Source: Halovivax gelatinilyticus (GTDB taxonomy: Archaea; Halobacteriota; Halobacteria; Halobacteriales; Natrialbaceae). Taken from it: a stretch of DNA of 64,000 nt. The DNA is taken from the NCBI RefSeq assembly GCF_024300625.1, contig NZ_CP101322.1, forward strand, positions 261,992 through 325,991, written 5' to 3'. The notes beneath the pieces are model-generated. The model saw nothing but the letters and a program-made list of their open reading frames with translations. It was not told the DNA's origin and searched no databases. Position 1 is the stretch's first letter; the number at the start of each line of letters is the position of its first letter. Positions 23,873 to 63,885 of this stretch are shown here, piece by piece. Position numbers and translations under genes: made by a program.

Positions 23873-26311
23873 ATGAGGGGGGATCGAGGAACAGGAACGG
23901 AGCCAGACGGATCGAACGAGACGTACGAACGAAGCGTGACACCGATCGTCGGAATCGTCCTCTTATTTGGGATGGTGTTTATCGGAGCGGCGATTCTCGC
24001 CGTTACCGGTCTCGCGCTCATGGACTCGCTCGAATCGGACTCCGAGCGAGAGACCCTCCAGACGTGCCTGCAGGAGACCGACCACCGAATTTCGACGGTC
24101 CTCACCTACAGCACTGTCGACGAACTCCCCTGTGAGGGTGGAGAGTTCGTCCCCGACGGACAGCTCTATCTCGTCTGGCACGACGATTCCGGAACCGCCA
24201 CCGATCTGACCGAAGACTACCCTACGGTAAACGCGACGCTCGGCGCGATCGAATACGCCGGAGCCGACCACACCTACGCCTACCAGGCCGGCGGTAGCTG
24301 GAAACTAAACGGCGATGACGCCCGCGTCCTCTCGAAACCCGCCTTCGAGTACCACGACGAGTTGCTCATCAACGTCGTCACCATCACCGAAGACGCCCTC
24401 TCCGATACCCCCCAGCGACTGAATCGCGAACCGGACAGCGACGTGGCCAAACAGATTCGATCCGCCCACGATGAAGCCGTTTCGAACGGCTACGGCAACC
24501 TCTCGCTCGTCATCGAGAGCGACTACCACGACGCGTGGGAGCGCCACCTCACCTCCGCGATGACGAACGATTCAGTGTCGATCGACACCACCCCCGATCA
24601 GTTCCCAATCGACGAAGACCGCGCCGTTCGAGTCGACATCACGGACGTCATCGAACCAGAACCCGCCCAGTTCGAGATCGTCGAAGACAAGGGATTCAGC
24701 GGACCTTCCGCGGTGGACGGGAAAGACAACGTGATCGTCGCGAATCCGTCTGAAGGCCCAACGGGGCCAGGAAGCCTCTGGCTGAACGCGTCCGTCGAGG
24801 TCAAAAACGTCGGAGACGTCGAAGGGACCGAAGAGATAACGTTCGAGGTCGACGGTGAAGAGATCGATTCGAAGACCGAAACGCTCGACGGCGGCGAATC
24901 GACGATAGTACACTTCGACGAGAATTTCGGCCAGCAACAGGCAACTCTCGCCCTCGAATACGGTGAGGTGTACGAGTACTGGTTCGAAACTGAGTCAGAC
25001 GACCTAAATCCCCGGGGTAGTTTCTATTACGCGAAAACCGAAGGCCCACACCTGATTCCTGGAAATGCGAATGCGCATCTAGACGAGAGTTCCGAGAACG
25101 TCACGGTCACCGCTGACATCCACAACGTCGGAGCGACGAATGCGACCGACGAATCGGTCGAACTCTCACTGTGGCAGACCGAATCGGGTGAATCAGATCC
25201 ATACAATCTCGGTAATGAGAATCCGTTCATCCTCGAAAACCGGGCATTCGGTGAGAAGAAATCCGCAACGTGGACTATCGATGCGTCGAATCTGATCAGG
25301 GGTGAGCACGCGTTCGAAATCGAGGTTATCGGCGAAAACGGATCCAATACCGTCGCCACCGGTGACTTCAACAGTACGATCGGCTGTACCGACGACGATG
25401 ACGATAGTGACAATCTGTGTATTGAAAGTAATACGGAGGTCGATGTCTCGGTCGTTGGCACCGAAATGAGTACGTCTGGAAGTACTGTCCATTGGGTCCC
25501 GGCGTTTGCGACGATCTACACGCAGCCACTTGATGGAGAAAGTGAACCGGAGCCAGTTGACGCCCCGTGGCACGGCGAGAATCTGAACCAGTTCAGCGAC
25601 AGATTGGCCATATACAATCACAGCTTCACTGTAGATGAACGGATCAGTTTGATGGTCAAAGGAGAATCGTACCTCCATTGTCACAGTTGGAGTGAAGGCC
25701 AGTCTGACGGTGAAAGACTTCACCGGTCGTGCGATACAAACCAGGTGGATAGATCAGACTCATCATCATTAGTAGAGTTAACCGCAGACAGAGATGTAGT
25801 CGAAACAAACGTTAGAGTCTTGAGTGAGAAAAATAACCTCCTACCGAATCTCGATCCTGGCCTGGACTTCCAACTGGATCCACAAACGCTACTAGAGCGT
25901 GAAGAGGTTGGCATTGAAGTCACGGATGCAGATCCGTCTGATCCAGATAACGACAGCGCACTACTCGGGCTCGATGAGAATGAATACCTGTTCGTCTTCG
26001 AGTTAACCCATCACCCAACCCAACACAATACTGGTCCGTATATACACAATGCCGAATACTTAACGGCAGACGAGTACTGGGATCTGGCGGTCGGTGACGA
26101 GTACGACGTGGATCCGAATTTCAACGACATGCTAGTTCACGTGGAAATAAATAGCGAATCCGAAGCAGATTACGGATACAGCGGTACATTCGTTGACGAG
26201 GGAGGCGAACCAATTGACGTGAGCCCTGGCAGTTCCGATGGCGTGGGCGACGGAAACGGTAACGGCGGCGTCGACATCGGCGTCGGCTCCGACGAGCTGA
26301 TAATCGGATAA
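23873..26311 (+). CDS. Large pilin-like surface protein (812 aa), paralogue of the next gene
   Basis: Predicted surface protein. After 20 polar residues, RSVTPIVGIVLLFGMVFIGA begins a hydrophobic pilin-like segment, with a likely prepilin-peptidase site next to the Arg. A conserved coiled helix follows (MDSLESDSERE). The extracellular part has a motif DYHDAWERHL, CARDB-like beta-sandwich stretches (VEVKNVGDVEGTEEITFEVDG and ADIHNVGATNATDES, given as landmarks), many sequons and a Gly/Asn-rich C-terminus. It shares N-terminus, DYHDAW and DPNFND with the following gene, so the two arose by duplication. Its C-terminal third (from about 25.2 kb) is more AT-rich than the rest. Confidence 0.85.
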   Translation: MRGDRGTGTEPDGSNETYERSVTPIVGIVLLFGMVFIGAAILAVTGLALMDSLESDSERETLQTCLQETDHRISTVLTYSTVDELPCEGGEFVPDGQLYLVWHDDSGTATDLTEDYPTVNATLGAIEYAGADHTYAYQAGGSWKLNGDDARVLSKPAFEYHDELLINVVTITEDALSDTPQRLNREPDSDVAKQIRSAHDEAVSNGYGNLSLVIESDYHDAWERHLTSAMTNDSVSIDTTPDQFPIDEDRAVRVDITDVIEPEPAQFEIVEDKGFSGPSAVDGKDNVIVANPSEGPTGPGSLWLNASVEVKNVGDVEGTEEITFEVDGEEIDSKTETLDGGESTIVHFDENFGQQQATLALEYGEVYEYWFETESDDLNPRGSFYYAKTEGPHLIPGNANAHLDESSENVTVTADIHNVGATNATDESVELSLWQTESGESDPYNLGNENPFILENRAFGEKKSATWTIDASNLIRGEHAFEIEVIGENGSNTVATGDFNSTIGCTDDDDDSDNLCIESNTEVDVSVVGTEMSTSGSTVHWVPAFATIYTQPLDGESEPEPVDAPWHGENLNQFSDRLAIYNHSFTVDERISLMVKGESYLHCHSWSEGQSDGERLHRSCDTNQVDRSDSSSLVELTADRDVVETNVRVLSEKNNLLPNLDPGLDFQLDPQTLLEREEVGIEVTDADPSDPDNDSALLGLDENEYLFVFELTHHPTQHNTGPYIHNAEYLTADEYWDLAVGDEYDVDPNFNDMLVHVEINSESEADYGYSGTFVDEGGEPIDVSPGSSDGVGDGNGNGGVDIGVGSDELIIG

Positions 26312-26570
26312 CGGCCGAACCAGTTCTCACGGTTGGTACGCACAATTGTAGACGTACTCTCACCCAGGTGGCCACGGCCAGCAGCGGGTTAAATCACGAT
26401 AGAATCGGGTTCTCACGCAGTAGCCGACTGTACCGGCAGCATTCATCGAAACACTTCGGACCACTAGTCCGATTTATCAAAATTTCCCCTTACTCAAATA
26501 CATTATCTAAAATATAGTAAGAAACTTCGCAATATCATTATAGATTGGAAGAACAAAGCGTTCAAAGAAC
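26312..26570. promoter_or_regulatory. Intergenic region with promoter of the third pilin-like gene
   Basis: The last 100 bp are AT-rich. CAATATCATTATA recurs at 26530-26542, placing a TATA element 27-33 nt ahead of the ATG at 26571. The match to the copy upstream of the second gene (23833-23845) is exact over 13 bases, so the two genes probably share a regulator or simply a duplicated promoter. Confidence 0.65.
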
Positions 26571-29054
26571 ATGGGGGACGAAGGGGTAAACGAAGAAAGA
26601 TCCATCCCAATACAAAGCGGGGGACACGACAGGAGTGTGGCACCTGTCGTCGGGATAATTCTACTGTTTGGAATGGTCTTCATCGGGGCGGCACTGGTGG
26701 CCGGGGCAGGAATGATGTTGATGGATTCGGTCGAATCCGAATCGGAAGCCGAACAGGCGCTTTCGTGTCTGGATCGAACTGACCACAACGTCCAAACGCT
26801 GCTTCGAGCGAACACCCAGGAAGAAATTCCCTGCGAGTCGGGGGTACGCGATCACGGATCGGTCACGCTCACGCTGAGTAACGACGATGGCGAAGACGAA
26901 ACCGTCACGATCGATCCGCTCGGATCGTTCGAGTACGAACTCGACGATCGGCGCCTCGGCTACCAGAGCGGGGGCGTCTTTCAACTAAGCGACGGGACGA
27001 CGAGAATTCACACGCCACCGGACGTCGGCTTCGGCGAGGGCCCAGAGACCCCGCTCGCAGAGCAAACGATGAGTCTTAACTTCCTTTCGTTCACGTCCGT
27101 TGAGCAGCACGGATCGGTGACGGCGATGAATCACAACCAATCGGCGACGACGGCGAAATCAGATGAAATCGAACGGGCGTTAGCGGGCGGATACGAACAT
27201 CTGGAGATCGAAATCGAAAGTGACTACCACGACGCGTGGGCCACCCACCTCGAAAGTGCGTTCTACGCGGATACGTACGACAACGTCTCCGTCGACCACG
27301 ACGAGTCGGCCGAGACGGTTACACTCTCGATCGAGCACTTCGCCGAACCGGACGCCTTCTTCCAGGTTACCGATGTCGAACCGGCCGACTGGATGGTTGT
27401 GTATCGAGGCAACCAAACGTTCGAATTGGATGCCGAAGTAACGAACACCGGCCACGTGACCGGGAGCGACGATCTCACACTCGAAATCCCGGCGGCGGAC
27501 GCAGACGACCGCGAGTTCGAAATCGACGAACTGGAACCGGGCGAATCGGTTACGAAAACGTTCGACGTCGAGTCGTTCGACATACCAACCGAAGGGCCTG
27601 GAAATCAACCCAACGACATCAACCGGTACGGTGCGTACGACTACACCGTCTCGACGAGCGATAGCGACGCTAGCGGCTCGTTCTATCTAACCTTCCCGGA
27701 TAACGCATTTTATCGGATCGACGACCTCTCGATGACCGACGAGGGGCCGATCACGACCGCTGGACTAAACGTGACGAACATCGGGGAACTCACTGCACCG
27801 GTGGAAACAACGATGACACTCCAAAGTAACGATGATTCGCTTCCCGACCCCATTGCCGAGTGGGACGAAACTGTCGAACTCGATCCCTGGGACGAAACGA
27901 CGATCGAGTACGATTTCAACCGGAGCGTCCTCCCCGACGCGAACTACACGTACACGATCGAGATCGATAACGATGGCCTTGGCACATCGATGTGTAATCT
28001 TCACGAGTCGGCCTGCGTGCGAGAGGGCTCGTTCGAAATCGAAGACGGGGCAATCGGTGGGCCAGGAGAGGTGATCATCACCGAGCCGTCTAACGTGAGC
28101 GTCAGTATTATCGGGACGGAGATATCAGCGGAGGGTTATGACCAAGATCAGGGTTCGTGGGTCAAATATTGGTCTCCAGTCACGGCCTCCGCCGTTGTCG
28201 GTGATACACGTTATCGGTTCCTTCCAGACGGGTCAATCGAAGAAATCGCGTACGAGGACCCTCACGAAACCGAGATCGGTGAACAAATGGAGGATTTTAA
28301 TCTGAACACCTTCGGTACCCAAGAGCACATCTACAGCTTAGAGGAAGAGATAGAGGAAGGATCGGTAACAATCGAAGCGACCTATTGGGAATGTTATTCT
28401 AGTTGGTTAAGAACAGGATGGGAGTATGCTGGGACGGACGAATGGCAAGAAAGAGAGTACAACCACTTCAATTGTGAAGAATTCGGTGAACCGATTACCG
28501 TCGACGTCGCCAGCGGGGAGATTGATGCCGATGCTGGGTTCGTTATGACGCGAGACGCCGACCGGAACGAGTTGCCAGACATTGAGGAGGGGTACGACCG
28601 TCAACGAAACATCCAGGAGGTGTTCGAAGACGGCACCGACGATATCGAGTTGATCGACGGTGAACTAACCCTCGGACAAAACGACTTTGCGTTCATGATG
28701 GAAGTCACAATGGATCACGAAGGACTTGTCTCCACCTACGGGGAGGATTATGACGGTGAGTACAATCTCGATACGGACAACCAGACCGAAAGCAACCTGG
28801 CCGCCTGGGACATCGCTGAGAATTACCGCAACGACGAACTGTATGGTACCGGTGACCCCAACTTTAACGACGTCATCGGGTTCGTCCAGGTCGACGGTGG
28901 CGGGCAGTACATCGATCTCGATCCGGACGCGATCCTCGACGACTATCGACTCGAAGGGGTGAGCGGCGCGCCATCGATCGAATACTCCGACGACGAGTAC
29001 GACACTGGCGGACCGACCGTCGAAGCAGGAACCGGTGTCATCGAGATCTCCTAA
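26571..29054 (+). CDS. Large pilin-like surface protein (827 aa), paralogue of the preceding gene
   Basis: Same architecture as the 812-aa neighbour: polar leader of about 22 residues, SVAPVVGIILLFGMVFIGAA, then MDSVESESEAE, a shared Cys followed by DRTDHN, DYHDAWATHL and a late DPNFND motif. The middle holds beta-sandwich repeats with CARDB-like spacing (AEVTNTGHVTGSDDLTLEI, LNVTNIGELTAPVETTM). Extracellular acidic residues and sequons are frequent. Near residues 600-660 a Cys/Trp-rich stretch (YWECYSSWLRTGWEYAG) differs from the paralogue. Function could be adhesion, pilus capping or surface assembly; none is shown by the sequence. Confidence 0.85.
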   Translation: MGDEGVNEERSIPIQSGGHDRSVAPVVGIILLFGMVFIGAALVAGAGMMLMDSVESESEAEQALSCLDRTDHNVQTLLRANTQEEIPCESGVRDHGSVTLTLSNDDGEDETVTIDPLGSFEYELDDRRLGYQSGGVFQLSDGTTRIHTPPDVGFGEGPETPLAEQTMSLNFLSFTSVEQHGSVTAMNHNQSATTAKSDEIERALAGGYEHLEIEIESDYHDAWATHLESAFYADTYDNVSVDHDESAETVTLSIEHFAEPDAFFQVTDVEPADWMVVYRGNQTFELDAEVTNTGHVTGSDDLTLEIPAADADDREFEIDELEPGESVTKTFDVESFDIPTEGPGNQPNDINRYGAYDYTVSTSDSDASGSFYLTFPDNAFYRIDDLSMTDEGPITTAGLNVTNIGELTAPVETTMTLQSNDDSLPDPIAEWDETVELDPWDETTIEYDFNRSVLPDANYTYTIEIDNDGLGTSMCNLHESACVREGSFEIEDGAIGGPGEVIITEPSNVSVSIIGTEISAEGYDQDQGSWVKYWSPVTASAVVGDTRYRFLPDGSIEEIAYEDPHETEIGEQMEDFNLNTFGTQEHIYSLEEEIEEGSVTIEATYWECYSSWLRTGWEYAGTDEWQEREYNHFNCEEFGEPITVDVASGEIDADAGFVMTRDADRNELPDIEEGYDRQRNIQEVFEDGTDDIELIDGELTLGQNDFAFMMEVTMDHEGLVSTYGEDYDGEYNLDTDNQTESNLAAWDIAENYRNDELYGTGDPNFNDVIGFVQVDGGGQYIDLDPDAILDDYRLEGVSGAPSIEYSDDEYDTGGPTVEAGTGVIEIS

Positions 29055-34282: not shown

Positions 34283-34543
34283 ATGACGAGCGTCAAAACC
34301 TACACGATCATCTACGTGATCCTGTTGGCGCTGGGGACCGGCAAGTTCCTGTTCTTCACCTTCGACTTTGGCTATGCGACCGCAATGGGTGGAACAATGT
34401 TGCTGGCAGTGATCAAGTCACTGCTCATCGCCGGCTACTACCAGCACCTGGTCGACGAACCGAGATCGATCTCCTACATGATGCTAGTGGCCGTCTTCAT
34501 GGTCTTCCTGCTCGTGATCGCCGCAGGGTACTCGATTCAATAA
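34283..34543 (+). CDS. Cytochrome c oxidase subunit IV-like small membrane protein
   Basis: 86 aa with three hydrophobic stretches (about 8-30, 35-55 and 63-84), matching the prokaryotic subunit IV/CoxD-type pattern (AVIKSLLIAGYYQHLVDEP is typical). It probably helps assemble or stabilise the oxidase. It has its own TATA box 26-32 nt upstream, 230 bp after coxAC. Confidence 0.85.
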   Translation: MTSVKTYTIIYVILLALGTGKFLFFTFDFGYATAMGGTMLLAVIKSLLIAGYYQHLVDEPRSISYMMLVAVFMVFLLVIAAGYSIQ

Positions 34544-34581
34544 CCCCGGCCGTCACCGTCTCGAGAAACCGTTTGCGTACT

Positions 34582-34610
34582 CGGATCCGTTTTGATCATT
34601 CTCGGATCCG
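34582..34610 (+). terminator. Possible terminator hairpin after the subunit-IV-like gene
   Basis: CGGATCCG occurs twice (34582-34589 and 34603-34610); each copy is palindromic, so they can pair as an 8-bp stem with a T-rich 13-nt loop. It starts about 38 nt after the stop codon at 34543. This is suggestive only, since archaeal termination mainly uses U-tracts. Confidence 0.35.
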
Positions 34611-34820
34611 ATTCGCTCTCACTTCCAATTCATCCGTCTAGCGCCGCTCACGTAACCGGATCCGGAGTGTGACGTCGATCCGTTTCGAGGATGTCAATCC
34701 GCTGTGGAGCATGGCAGAGACGAGTGAGCGGTCTAGCGTCGAGACTGGCCGGGCGCAACGAGGGACGCTCTCTGGTGTGAGATTCGTGTTACTCAGCACC
34801 CGGTGCGTGTCTGAGTGACG

Positions 34821-35930
34821 CTACGGCTGGAAAAGAACCGAACCCGGATCGGCGACACCGCGGTCGGATTCTTCGGTCTCAGCACGCGTTCGAACCGACT
34901 CAGGATCGAATCGGTTTCTGTCCATATTTGGTTTCAATCCGGCTCGTTCGATGACCTCGAGATCAGCGGCTGCTGACTGCCCCTCCGTCGTCAGGTAGTC
35001 GCCGATCAATAAGCCGTCAGCACCGGTGCGAAATGGACGGGTTGTTCGTCTACATCCAGCATCACCTCGCGTCCCCCGGTCAACCGCACCGTCGCGCTGG
35101 GGTGTAACAACCGATACACCGCGATCGTCGCGAGTAGTTCCTCGGTCGTGATCGCCGGCGAATCGCCGAACCGATTGCCCAGGGGCGTTCCGGGAATGGG
35201 ATTGAGCACGTTCACCGGAAATGACGAAATTCCAATCTCCTGGAGCGCAACGGCTGCGTCGACTCGGTCGGTCGGAGACACGCCCATCCCGAGGATCACG
35301 CCGGCACAGAGATCCATGCCGGCGGCCTTGGCGACCTCGAGCGTATGTACCCTGTCTTTGAAGGAGTGAGTGGCCACTACCTCGGGGAAGAATCGCCGCG
35401 AGGTCTCGATGTTGTGATTGTAGTGATTGACGCCCTCCTCGGCGAGTGTTGTTGCTTCTTCCTGCGTCCAAGATCCCGAGCGAAGCGTCCACCTCCAGCG
35501 CAGTCTCGTCGCGAACGAGCCGGATCGATCGCAGTACCTGCGCCCACTCGTCCGGTCGCGTTTCTTTCGAGACACCCTTTTCAGCGACGACGATCCCGAA
35601 TCGTTGTGCGCCATCGCGCTCGGCGCGCCTGGCTGCCTCGAGAACCGAGTCAGGTTCGAGAAAGTCGTAGGTCTCGATCCCGGTATCGAAATGGACGGAT
35701 TGAGCGCAAAATTCACAATCCTCGGCACAATTCCCGGCCTTCGCGTTGACGATCGAGCACACGTCGACGGTGTCGTCGCCGAAGTGTGCCCGGACGTCGT
35801 TCGCAGCTGCGGCGAGTTCGTCGACCGGCTGTGCGATCAATGCGAGTCCGTCACGCCGATCCAACTGCTCGCCCGAGAGGACGCGATCGACCGCCTCGTC
35901 GATCGTCCGGTTACCTGTTTCGTAAACTAT
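34821..35930 (-). pseudogene. bioB: Biotin synthase bioB, broken by two compensating frameshifts and an ATA start
   Basis: Radical-SAM biotin synthase would convert dethiobiotin to biotin. The N-terminal part (from 35930) reads VYETGNRTIDEAV through the Fe-S motif CAEDCEFC and ...EVDASLGILD. Near 35465 there is one extra base: dropping it restores DQEEATTLAEEGVNHYNHN. The second part stays in that frame until about 35024-35029, where one base is missing; then the reading returns to GADGLLIGDYLTTEG and the C-terminus. The codon where ATG is expected (35928-35930) is ATA, about 25 nt after a TATA box. Sequencing error could explain the shifts but not the ATA. Total 1110 nt, normal length. Confidence 0.85.
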
Positions 35931-35950
35931 TTTGAACGCTGCGTTTGCGA

Positions 35951-35960
35951 AAGTATAATA
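35951..35960 (-). promoter_or_regulatory. TATA box upstream of the bioB remnant
   Basis: TATTATACTT (minus strand) lies 21-30 nt before the ATA at the expected start. It indicates that the intact ancestor was leaderless and began at that codon. Confidence 0.55.
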
Positions 35961-36106
35961 CCCCCGATAATCGTCGATAAAAAGGACTCGTCGCAAGACC
36001 GAACGGAGCGACAGACCCGACGAACCAGCTCCAGAGACGACTGTACGAACGAACCGATGTGAGTCGAGAGAATAATCGAACGGAAAATACGCAGAGTGAG
36101 CAGAGG

Positions 36107-37567
36107 CTACTCCTTGCCGAACATCTGGCGCATCATCGGGTGCATCTCCATCATCTGCTCTTCGGCGATCTCCTCGTAGAGCTTGTACGTGATGGAGACG
36201 GCCAGCAGCAGGCCGGTTCCCGTGACCGCGCCGATGGTTCCGAGCATGTTCGCCCAGACGGCGAGCAGACCGACGAGCGCACCGCCGATGACGGTCACCT
36301 GCGGGATGTAGCGCTCCATGACCTTCTCGACGACGCCGACGTTCTGTCTGAACCCGGGGATCTGCATCCCGGAGTTCTGGATCTGCTTTGCCGTGGCGTC
36401 CGGACCCATGCCCGTCGTCTCGACCCAGAAGATCGCGAAGATGGCCCCACCGATCACCATGAAAGTGAGGTCGACGCTGAGTCGAAGGAGTACCTGCCAG
36501 GCCTCCTGGGTGACGCCGGCTTCCCACCACATCCAGTCGTCGGGCGAGTAGATCGGCGCGGTGTAGTAGAAGAAGCCGCCGACGGGCTCGCCGTCGCTGT
36601 AGGTTCCGAGGGCGGAGGGAAGGGTCGTTTGACTGTCAGCGATCCGTCCCATGAACTGAATGTTCGCCTGCAGCGCGCGAACGAGGATCATGGGCAGGAC
36701 GCTCGCGTAGATGAGCTTGACCGGGAACCGACCCCGGGCCCCCTTCACCCGCGAGTGACTGAGCGGAATCTCGACGCGGACGGATTCCGCGTAGACGACG
36801 ATCGCGAAGATCAGTAGCGTCGTCAGTAACGCGAGGATCATCCCCTCGGAGACCAGCAACGTGTAGAGACCGTCGCCGCCGACGATCGAACCGATCTGGA
36901 TCTCGCCGGTCAGGATCAACCACCAGTTGTAGAAGAATCCGTCTCCCTGTTCGAGCGAGAGGAATCCGGCGACGAGCATCTGGCTCACGCCGGCGACGAT
37001 GAACAGTCCGACACCGCTGCCGACGCCCCACTTGCTCACGACCTCGTCCATGTAGAGGATCAACACCCCGCCGATGAAGATCTGTAAGAACATGATCGTC
37101 TGGACGCCGGTCTGTCCGAACGTCAGACTGCCCAGGACGAGCTCCTGAGCGGGTGGAAGAAAGCCTTCACCGGCAAAGACCATCGGCGCCGCCGTCAACG
37201 CCGTCATCACGATGACGAGCAGCTTCTGCAGACCCTGGTAGAGAACCTGATCCCGCGGGTCGTTCGTATCGAGTCCGAGCAGGTTCGCCCCGCCGAGCAG
37301 CTGCAAGACAATGCTGGCGGTGACGATCGGCCCGATACCGACCTGCAAGACCGACCCCTGTTCACCCGCGAGAATCGCGCGGAACTCACCGAAGAGGTCG
37401 TCACCACCCTCGGCCATTCCGAGGAGCGTGATGTTAGTCAAGAAGAAATACAGTACCAGGATCGCCCCGGTCCACATTAGCTTTCGCTTGAAGGGAACGT
37501 GTCCCTCCGGTCTGCGGACCGTGGGCATGCGCGTCAAAACCGGTTCAGCGGCTTCCTTCCAGCCCAT
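36107..37567 (-). CDS. secY: Protein translocase subunit SecY
   Basis: Membrane channel of the Sec translocon, 486 aa with 10 spans. The N-terminus begins MGWKEAAEPVLTRMPTV, followed by the first span. The plug region and cytoplasmic loops (VEIPLSHSRVKGARGRFPVKL) are recognisable. Last gene of the ribosomal-protein block, 3 nt after the uL15 gene. The C-terminus carries ...MMEMHPMMRQMFGKE, typical of haloarchaea. Confidence 0.95.
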   Translation of the reverse strand: MGWKEAAEPVLTRMPTVRRPEGHVPFKRKLMWTGAILVLYFFLTNITLLGMAEGGDDLFGEFRAILAGEQGSVLQVGIGPIVTASIVLQLLGGANLLGLDTNDPRDQVLYQGLQKLLVIVMTALTAAPMVFAGEGFLPPAQELVLGSLTFGQTGVQTIMFLQIFIGGVLILYMDEVVSKWGVGSGVGLFIVAGVSQMLVAGFLSLEQGDGFFYNWWLILTGEIQIGSIVGGDGLYTLLVSEGMILALLTTLLIFAIVVYAESVRVEIPLSHSRVKGARGRFPVKLIYASVLPMILVRALQANIQFMGRIADSQTTLPSALGTYSDGEPVGGFFYYTAPIYSPDDWMWWEAGVTQEAWQVLLRLSVDLTFMVIGGAIFAIFWVETTGMGPDATAKQIQNSGMQIPGFRQNVGVVEKVMERYIPQVTVIGGALVGLLAVWANMLGTIGAVTGTGLLLAVSITYKLYEEIAEEQMMEMHPMMRQMFGKE

Positions 37568-61759: not shown

Positions 61760-62467
61760 TTAGACAAAGAGCGAGAGGGCGAGCGCCACGCCGAGACCGC
61801 AGACGGGCCAGTCTCGGGGCCGAAAGCGAAGCGGTGGAAGCGTCGGGTTCCACGACAGACACCGAGCCTGCAAGGCGACGGAGAGTCGGTCGGCCCGGCT
61901 GAACGCTCGCGAGAGGCCGACGGCACCGACTCGCGCCGCCCGATCGCGCGCTGGCCGTTCGGATCCGAGTCGGGCGGCCATCGCTGCCTGAACGGTCCGT
62001 AAATCGGCTTGCAGAACGGGCAAGAACCTGAACACGAGCGACACGCCGAGTCCGAGGAAGCGTCCGGGTGCGCCGGGAACGATTCGCTGAAACGCCGCCT
62101 GTGAATCGCGAACGGGCGTCGAGCGGACGTAAGCTGCGCTAACGAGGAGGATCAATCCCACCCGGTAGCCCGCACTCGCCGTGGTGAGTCCGTCGTCGAC
62201 GTCGATCCAGGGGGAGCCGAGCGTAACCGCAGAGACGACGACCCCGATACTGAGAAAGCCGAAGATGTACCGGTAGGCGACCAGTGTTCGGCCGATCGAG
62301 ATCCCGGCGAACGCGAGAGTGGCGAGTGCGAGAACCGTGAGTCCGACGTGTGCGACGAACGATGTGTGGCCGATCGCGGCGACGGCAAATCCCACCTGAA
62401 CGCAGAGCTTCGATCGCGGGTCGAGGCGGTGTGCGAACGTTTCGTCGGGTTCGTAGGTGAGCATCAT
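61760..62467 (-). CDS. bioN: ECF transporter transmembrane component (BioN type)
   Basis: Membrane T-component of an energy-coupling-factor importer, 235 aa with about five spans. The cytoplasmic coupling helices AAMAARLGSERPARD and ADRLSVALQARCLSW correspond to the two EcfT motifs. Its ATG overlaps the bioM stop (ATGA), so translation is coupled. With bioY and bioM it forms a complete biotin importer set, hence BioN. Confidence 0.88.
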   Translation of the reverse strand: MMLTYEPDETFAHRLDPRSKLCVQVGFAVAAIGHTSFVAHVGLTVLALATLAFAGISIGRTLVAYRYIFGFLSIGVVVSAVTLGSPWIDVDDGLTTASAGYRVGLILLVSAAYVRSTPVRDSQAAFQRIVPGAPGRFLGLGVSLVFRFLPVLQADLRTVQAAMAARLGSERPARDRAARVGAVGLSRAFSRADRLSVALQARCLSWNPTLPPLRFRPRDWPVCGLGVALALSLFV

Positions 62468-63177
62468 CTCTCCGATCCGGTTCGAACGCCGATCTCGCTC
62501 GCGGCGAGTTCGGCCATCGCCCGGTCGGGTTCGTCGTCGATAGCGACGTGTCCGTCGGCCATGGCGATGACGCGATCGGCGAGGTCGATCACCTCGGCCG
62601 GGTCGTGCGTCGAGACGATCACGCCGGTACCAGACGCCGAGAGCGACGCGAGTTGCTCGCGAACCGAGCGGCGGGCGGGATCGTCCAGCCCGGAGAAGGG
62701 TTCGTCGAGGACGAGGTGAGACGGCGCCATCGCGAGCGCGCCGGCGATCGCCACCCGCGACTGCTCGCCACCGGAGAGTTCGTCGATTCGTTCGTCACCC
62801 CGTCCGTTCATGTTCACGGCTTCTAGAGCGCGTTCGACGCGATCGTCGATGACGTCACGTTCGAGTCCCAGGTTCTCCGGGCCGAACGCGACGTCGGCCG
62901 CGACGGTCGCGGCGACGAACTGGTCGCGTGGGTGTTGAAAGACCATGCCGACGGCCGAGCGGGCCGCGACGAGATCGGCGGCGACCGGCGTTCCGTCGAC
63001 TCGAACGCGTCCGTCGGCGGGTTCGAGTAGCCCATTGGTGTGGCGCAATAGCGTCGTCTTTCCGCTTCCGTTCGGGCCGACGAGAACGACGAATTCGCCG
63101 TCATCGATGGTGAGCGATACGGAGTGGAGGATATTCGCCCCGCCGTATGCGAACGAGACGTCGTCGAATTCGATCAT
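62464..63177 (-). CDS. bioM: ECF transporter ATPase (BioM type)
   Basis: ABC ATPase of 237 aa. Walker A GPNGSGKTTLL is near residue 33, Q-loop MVFQHPRDQF, signature ELSGGEQSRVAIAGAL, Walker B LVLDEPFSGLD. It is the single ATPase in the operon, so it probably works as a homodimer. It starts 7 nt after bioY and overlaps bioN. Confidence 0.92.
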   Translation of the reverse strand: MIEFDDVSFAYGGANILHSVSLTIDDGEFVVLVGPNGSGKTTLLRHTNGLLEPADGRVRVDGTPVAADLVAARSAVGMVFQHPRDQFVAATVAADVAFGPENLGLERDVIDDRVERALEAVNMNGRGDERIDELSGGEQSRVAIAGALAMAPSHLVLDEPFSGLDDPARRSVREQLASLSASGTGVIVSTHDPAEVIDLADRVIAMADGHVAIDDEPDRAMAELAASEIGVRTGSER

Positions 63178-63184
63178 CGGACAG

Positions 63185-63841
63185 TCAGGTTGGATCGACG
63201 ATCTCGCTTCGCACGACGGCGACGGCGGCGACCATTTTTATCAGTTCACCGATGAGAAACGGGGCGACGTAGAGGGCGAGGGCCTCGGTGGGCGAGAGGG
63301 CGAGTAGCCACATCCCGTACGTCGCTCCCATCGCGTAGATGATGACGGTCGCGATCACGAGCGCGACGACGAGACGGACGGTCCCGACCTCCGCCGGGTT
63401 ACGGACCTGAGATCGTTCGAAGAAGCCCGGGCGGTCGATCCCCGTCGCTTCCGGATCGATCCCACGGCGTCCGATCCCAGCCCGACCGTGAACGATCGCA
63501 CCGATAACGAACGCGGCGATGGGATACGACCAGAGGAAGCCGGCCGTATCTCCGACGAGCGCACCGAATCCGGCGCTTCCACCGGCGAAAACCGGTGCAC
63601 CCGCGGCGCCCGCTGCCAGGTACAGCGCCATCGCCGTCGGCCCCCAGATCGGTCCCAGATAGAGCCCGGCCAGGAAGACGAAGAGAACCTGTAAGGTAAG
63701 CGGTGCCGGTGAGATCGGTATCGGAATCGAAAACAGCGCGGTCGCCCCGGTCAACGCAGCCAGCAGCGCCGCCCTCGCGAACGGCTTGACGACCGCGCCG
63801 GGGACCAGCGAGACGGATCGGCGCTCGTAATCGGTAGACAT
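63185..63841 (-). CDS. bioY: Biotin transporter substrate-binding component BioY
   Basis: S-component of the biotin ECF importer, 218 aa with about six spans. The family hallmarks are present: IPISPAPLTLQVLFVFLAGL and LGPIWGPTAMALYLAAGAAG, then GAPVFAGGSAGFGALVGDTAG. A hydrophilic insertion (about residues 120-155) lies in one loop. It heads the bioYMN operon, directly behind an operator of the BirA type. Biotin specificity is well supported by the family match and by that operator. Confidence 0.93.
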   Translation of the reverse strand: MSTDYERRSVSLVPGAVVKPFARAALLAALTGATALFSIPIPISPAPLTLQVLFVFLAGLYLGPIWGPTAMALYLAAGAAGAPVFAGGSAGFGALVGDTAGFLWSYPIAAFVIGAIVHGRAGIGRRGIDPEATGIDRPGFFERSQVRNPAEVGTVRLVVALVIATVIIYAMGATYGMWLLALSPTEALALYVAPFLIGELIKMVAAVAVVRSEIVDPT

Positions 63842-63855
63842 GCCCGGACCTCTCG

Positions 63856-63885
63856 CGTAAACCGACGTAATATCTTCGGTTTACG
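63856..63885 (-). promoter_or_regulatory. BirA-type biotin operator overlapping the bioYMN promoter
   Basis: A perfect 10-bp inverted repeat: CGTAAACCGA (63856-63865) and TCGGTTTACG (63876-63885), with a 10-nt spacer. Read as a biotin operator it is GTAAACC, 14 nt, GGTTTAC. This agrees with the known bacterial/archaeal BirA consensus core. The minus-strand TATA-like GATATTA (about 63868-63874) lies between the arms and about 29 nt before the bioY ATG at 63841. A bound repressor would therefore block TBP/TFB. Regulation by biotin is inference. Confidence 0.85.

Follow-up and report, generated by a model that had tools for sequence, protein, structure and literature searches.

Is the bioB gene of Halovivax gelatinilyticus still a working gene, or has it died? 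The window, a stretch of 64,000 nucleotides of this genome, carries a bioB at 34821-35930 on the minus strand (like all the bioB, operator and importer features of the window located below) which changes frame twice and has no start codon, and the question is whether this reflects decay or an error in the sequence. Judged from sequence comparison, it is very probably a genuine pseudogene, and the species would have given up biotin synthesis and import its biotin instead. The pseudogene itself is ordinary, and the more useful and interesting by-product of the analysis is a putative operator that straddles the start codon of the gene in its relatives.

The broken reading frame of bioB

The gene was delimited by its matches to the BioB family TIGR00433 and by three segments that can be aligned to 84 related loci. 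In the one-contig genome of 3,700,630 bases the family matched as three minus-strand pieces in two frames, the best at 169 bits against a cut-off of 225, and the second bioB that the original prediction had proposed to look for was not there, since the same search gave no full-length match and no further full copy. The N segment (35466-35930, frame 0) contains the CxxxCxxC motif as CAEDCEFC. A surplus base in the GG at 35468-35469, placed by the change of frame and by the sequence, leads into the middle segment (35030-35467, frame 1), which has BATS and radical SAM matches and is out of frame for 146 codons, and a missing base within 35025-35029, placed in the same way, leads back to frame 0 in the C segment (34821-35033 from the segment alignment, stop codon included). 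The surplus base had been expected near 35465, the missing base at 35024-35029 and the displaced stretch at about 145 codons, and all three expectations were borne out, the sites being now somewhat narrower. The statement that the catalytic cysteines are intact is true of CxxxCxxC, which lies in the in-frame N segment, but not of the cysteine in GMDLCAG, which like the arginine in RLTGGR belongs to the middle segment and is out of frame with the rest of the gene; from E. coli BioB we take both to be conserved functional residues.

Among the loci compared the breaks are peculiar to this genome, because the three segments share one frame in every one of the 84 related loci; a search for the same lesions in relatives, also proposed originally, thus found broken frames in 0 of 84. 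Identity to the relatives has stayed at about 75-85% over the segments, and at 75-80% in the displaced middle. Where the start codon belongs (35928-35930) the triplet is ATA; of 82 relatives (the 84 loci minus the partial L034 and the duplicate L016), 77 have GTG in the aligned position and 5 have ATG. The ATA itself was correctly noted, but the assertion that an ATG should be found there is inexact, and with these counts the lost start was probably a GTG. Since the inactivating lesions are not found in the relatives (84 of 84 frames, 82 of 82 starts), the gene has the marks of a pseudogene.

A putative operator over the gene start

Alignment of the sequences upstream of bioB in the 82 relatives reveals a palindrome that resembles a BirA box, CGTMAACC-N14-GGTTTACG, and that straddles the start codon. 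Its left half is seen as a CGT(C/A)AAC(C/T) block at -20 to -13, upstream of which TTTAT, a TATA-like element, lies at about -30 to -26. Its right half takes in the third base of the start codon and the codons that follow (2-4), the coding sequence beginning GTG GTT TAC GA. Codon 2 is GTT in all 82 relatives, while elsewhere in the same genes GTT makes up 145 of 2,416 valine codons (6.0%). The published BirA box is TTGTAAACC-[N14/15]-GGTTTACAA (PMC545781). We consider it likely that haloarchaeal bioB carries a biotin repressor operator built into the start of the gene. Bound at this site, BirA would lie over both the start of transcription and the start codon, which would suit genes whose leader is short or missing, and an operator covering the start codon fits with leaderless transcripts being common in haloarchaea (PMC3986360, PMC4574771). 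A search by titles and the first parts of abstracts gave no published account of BirA operators in haloarchaea, from which we do not claim that none is in print, and found no literature on Halovivax together with biotin.

In H. gelatinilyticus the TATA-like element (TATTATAC, 35953-35960) can be recognised, but compared to the consensus of the relatives the operator is decayed in its left half (CGCAAACG, 35942-35949) as well as its right half (AGTTTACG, 35921-35928), and the halves are 13 bases apart instead of 14. It scores 1.9, or 6.4 if a spacing of 13 is allowed, against a median of 29.5 among the relatives, 81 of which reach at least 12 (the exception, L014, has -15.8). The damage thus comprises substitutions in both halves and a one-base change in spacing, more than indel errors by themselves would cause.

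The operator pattern was also scanned for, with up to two mismatches, in five genomes of the genus, that of H. gelatinilyticus and those of the congeners G001-G004, with the reversed pattern as control. In each of the four congeners sites with no or one mismatch lie at the start of bioB and in front of bioY, and G004 has one extra site with one mismatch; at the same level H. gelatinilyticus has the site in front of bioY only. The control gave 0-2 matches per genome at up to two mismatches. The bioY site of the window (63856-63885) has no mismatch and scores 28.6. This perfect palindrome precedes bioYMN-like genes, and a matching site is found before bioY in all four congeners.

The start-straddling operator gives a cheap prediction for haloarchaea, namely that BirA represses bioB and bioYMN. 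If the operator has been read correctly, H. gelatinilyticus is a natural test of it, as the copy at bioB has decayed with the dead gene and the copy at bioY is perfect. Decay of the one and preservation of the other fit with control by BirA, and because only the operator at the dead gene has decayed, this genome supports the prediction independently.

Sequencing error, recoding or decay

Both frameshifts could be assembly errors in a bioB that works, for instance in salvage of desthiobiotin, a role that the bioB of G004 may have. The two indels do compensate each other, the displaced middle is as well conserved as stated above, and of 175 near-invariant sites no more than 5 have changed (second of 83 rows), so that the coding sequence appears to be under constraint over most of its length. 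The estimated completeness of the genome is also lower than that of the congeners, 95.51% against about 99%, a difference that might stem from sequence that is missing or from indel errors in other places. Two indels do not explain the ATA in place of GTG or ATG, however, and neither the substitutions nor the changed spacing of the operator. When congener proteins were compared with 266 kb of the genome around the window (the bioB of the congeners lies elsewhere and was not among the queries), 2 frameshift junctions were found in 113.5 kb with queries from G004 and 2 in 102.2 kb with queries from G002. In the opposite direction there were 3 in 109.8 kb (G004) and 1 in 100.2 kb (G002), and G002 and G004 compared with each other gave 5 and 8, in approximately 126 kb each, several of all these junctions, those of the congeners included, being judged to come from over-extended or shadow ORFs. 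With counts like those of the congeners the genome is not unusually frameshifted in the 266 kb sampled, and for that part we reject the idea of a widely indel-ridden assembly; at the surveyed rate, two frameshifts within 1.1 kb would be improbable by chance. The gene has, moreover, the longest end branch of the 83 rows, 0.65 overall, and 0.36 against a median of 0.061 for the two well-aligned segments, which also speaks against a gene that is damaged on paper only. Altogether we regard assembly errors as an unlikely explanation.

Far less credible still is programmed frameshifting, in which one +1 and one -1 event would restore a working BioB. The shifts cancel and there is no stop between them, but the middle segment is stop-free when read one base early in 31 of 82 relatives as well, and such openness by chance makes the open middle unremarkable and no sign of function. 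Two events would be required in one gene, the gene lacks a start codon, and a frame change is found in 0 of 84 relatives, for which reason we reject this alternative.

The decision for a pseudogene over a sequencing error, as originally argued, is hence supported by the damaged operator, the lack of convincing bioF and bioD matches described below, the lack of a second bioB and the lack of a frameshift excess. That the decay is recent calls for caution: the segments are about 75-85% identical to the relatives, but the end branch is the longest and the promoter side has decayed as well, and taken together this looks like an intermediate stage. GC3 of the segments, 0.71 and 0.74, is lower than in the bioB of the congeners (0.84-0.91); it is also below the median of 0.78 for 51 genes of the window, but inside their range.

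Biotin synthesis and import in Halovivax and its relatives

Three of the four congeners (G001-G003) have bioF and bioD within their bioB cluster. As had been suggested, both genes were sought in H. gelatinilyticus, and no convincing match to either was found in the genome: the best for bioF had 151.7 bits (cut-off 426; copies of G001-G003 407-425) and the best for bioD 32 bits (copies of G001-G003 112-116). G004 keeps its bioB, and for bioF and bioD none of its matches was above distant homologues. For bioA, none of the five genomes gave a TIGR00508 match that reached the cut-off. In the congeners bioB and bioF are separated by a gene that is BioU-like by comparison with the structures of Slr0355 (E 2.6e-85) and that scores 333 bits with NF047886, below the cut-off of 600 bits; it is found at L160:7637-8827 on the minus strand, and between bioB and bioF also in L159 and L161. 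Of 87 loci scanned, 3 of which are not bioB loci, 68 have a similar gene in the vicinity of bioB.

The importer looks intact. The window contains bioY, for the substrate-binding subunit of a biotin transporter (63185-63841, PF02632), adjoined by the gene of an ABC ATPase like BioM (62464-63177, PF00005), which in turn adjoins that of a transmembrane subunit like BioN, of the CbiQ family (61760-62467, PF02361), and BioY, ECF ATPase and transmembrane partner are thus all found at 61760-63841. The genome also encodes a BirA with an N-terminal HTH_11 domain (41.2 bits) and BPL domains, and a biotin carboxylase C domain. With the transporter, the helix-turn-helix BirA and the carboxylase domain, the species appears to need biotin and can probably import it, and import from the surroundings is probably how it obtains its biotin.

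The position of the gene raises a second question. It sits between secY and coxIV, and neither is a neighbour of bioB in any of the 84 related loci within the flanks available. In G001, G002 and G004 the interval between coxIV and secY codes for a ferredoxin-like Fe-S protein (about 440 aa long) and for a small protein that is rich in Cys and has what resembles a TAT signal; in H. gelatinilyticus the same interval (34543-36107 of the window) holds the bioB pseudogene. The gene may have been acquired separately from the bioB of the congeners, or have been relocated, as a lone gene, to the secY-cox site, before it decayed, and the copy that belonged to the genus would then have been lost or never present, a history that we consider possible but somewhat doubtful, and which is compatible with the pseudogene explanation. 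For it speak, besides the unique neighbours, the four congener genes, which form a fully supported clade without the H. gelatinilyticus gene, and the metY and metX genes, which flank the bio genes in G001, G002 and G003 and in H. gelatinilyticus directly adjoin, with an overlap of four bases. The lower GC3 points the same way, although decay can also lower GC3. The tree, however, leaves the gene unplaced, as a long branch without a firm position, an AU test does not reject its grouping with the four congeners (p = 0.30), and the species itself is deep in the genus (84-86% identity in secY). Elsewhere in the window (23873-29054) two adjacent large ORFs (812 and 827 aa) begin alike, have a low GC3 (0.65 and 0.67) and are poorly conserved in the congeners.

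In the family, 99 of 121 genomes have a bioB above the cut-off. The 22 without a full match are H. gelatinilyticus and G100 with split genes, G052 with a remnant, G072 with nothing (the genome is 55% complete) and 18 with weak matches, some of which are incomplete genomes. The pieces of the G100 gene (L187, G100:C34:96800-100400, 1296-2324) differ in frame, and about 46 residues are lacking between them; as the gene keeps the full operator at its start it looks like an earlier stage of decay than that of H. gelatinilyticus. The remnant in G052 (L188, 1661-1948) has a large internal deletion, and G038 has a bioB fragment with two stops (L189, 1283-2088) in addition to an intact bioB elsewhere. 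That biotin synthesis is lost and the importer kept is known already, but here one genus and its family show the stages side by side: a full cluster, a lone bioB, a broken bioB and operator, a remnant, and none.

For the pseudogene in H. gelatinilyticus we propose the following course. In the relatives, BirA charged with biotinyl-AMP would repress bioB by sitting over its transcription and translation start, and would repress bioY likewise. With bioF and bioD lost, bioB would be useful only for desthiobiotin from outside, and when this use lapsed the gene, its start and its operator may have decayed, while control of the importer would have been kept.

All three segments of the gene match BioB (TIGR00433) and the CxxxCxxC motif is present, but unlike a member of that family the gene is split over two frames, lacks a start codon and gives no full-length match over the cut-off. 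Natrialba magadii, likewise a haloarchaeon of the same broad group, is described as a biotin auxotroph with BioYMN (PMC3403918); its synthesis genes are reported there as absent, whereas a broken bioB remains in H. gelatinilyticus. Bacteria that have bioB alone are reported to be able to use desthiobiotin (PMC9561691, which in this respect concerns bacteria only), and G004, without bioF and bioD, has the same gene set as these desthiobiotin auxotrophs; in H. gelatinilyticus the last remaining gene is broken as well. To the biotin regulon under BirA control, as described in PMC545781, the relatives are alike in the half-sites, their orientation and the N14 spacing, and H. gelatinilyticus has a BirA of the helix-turn-helix type. 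Unlike the BirA boxes published there, the haloarchaeal box at bioB has its right half within the first four codons of the gene, and compared with that regulon H. gelatinilyticus has a decayed box at bioB and the box at bioY alone left.
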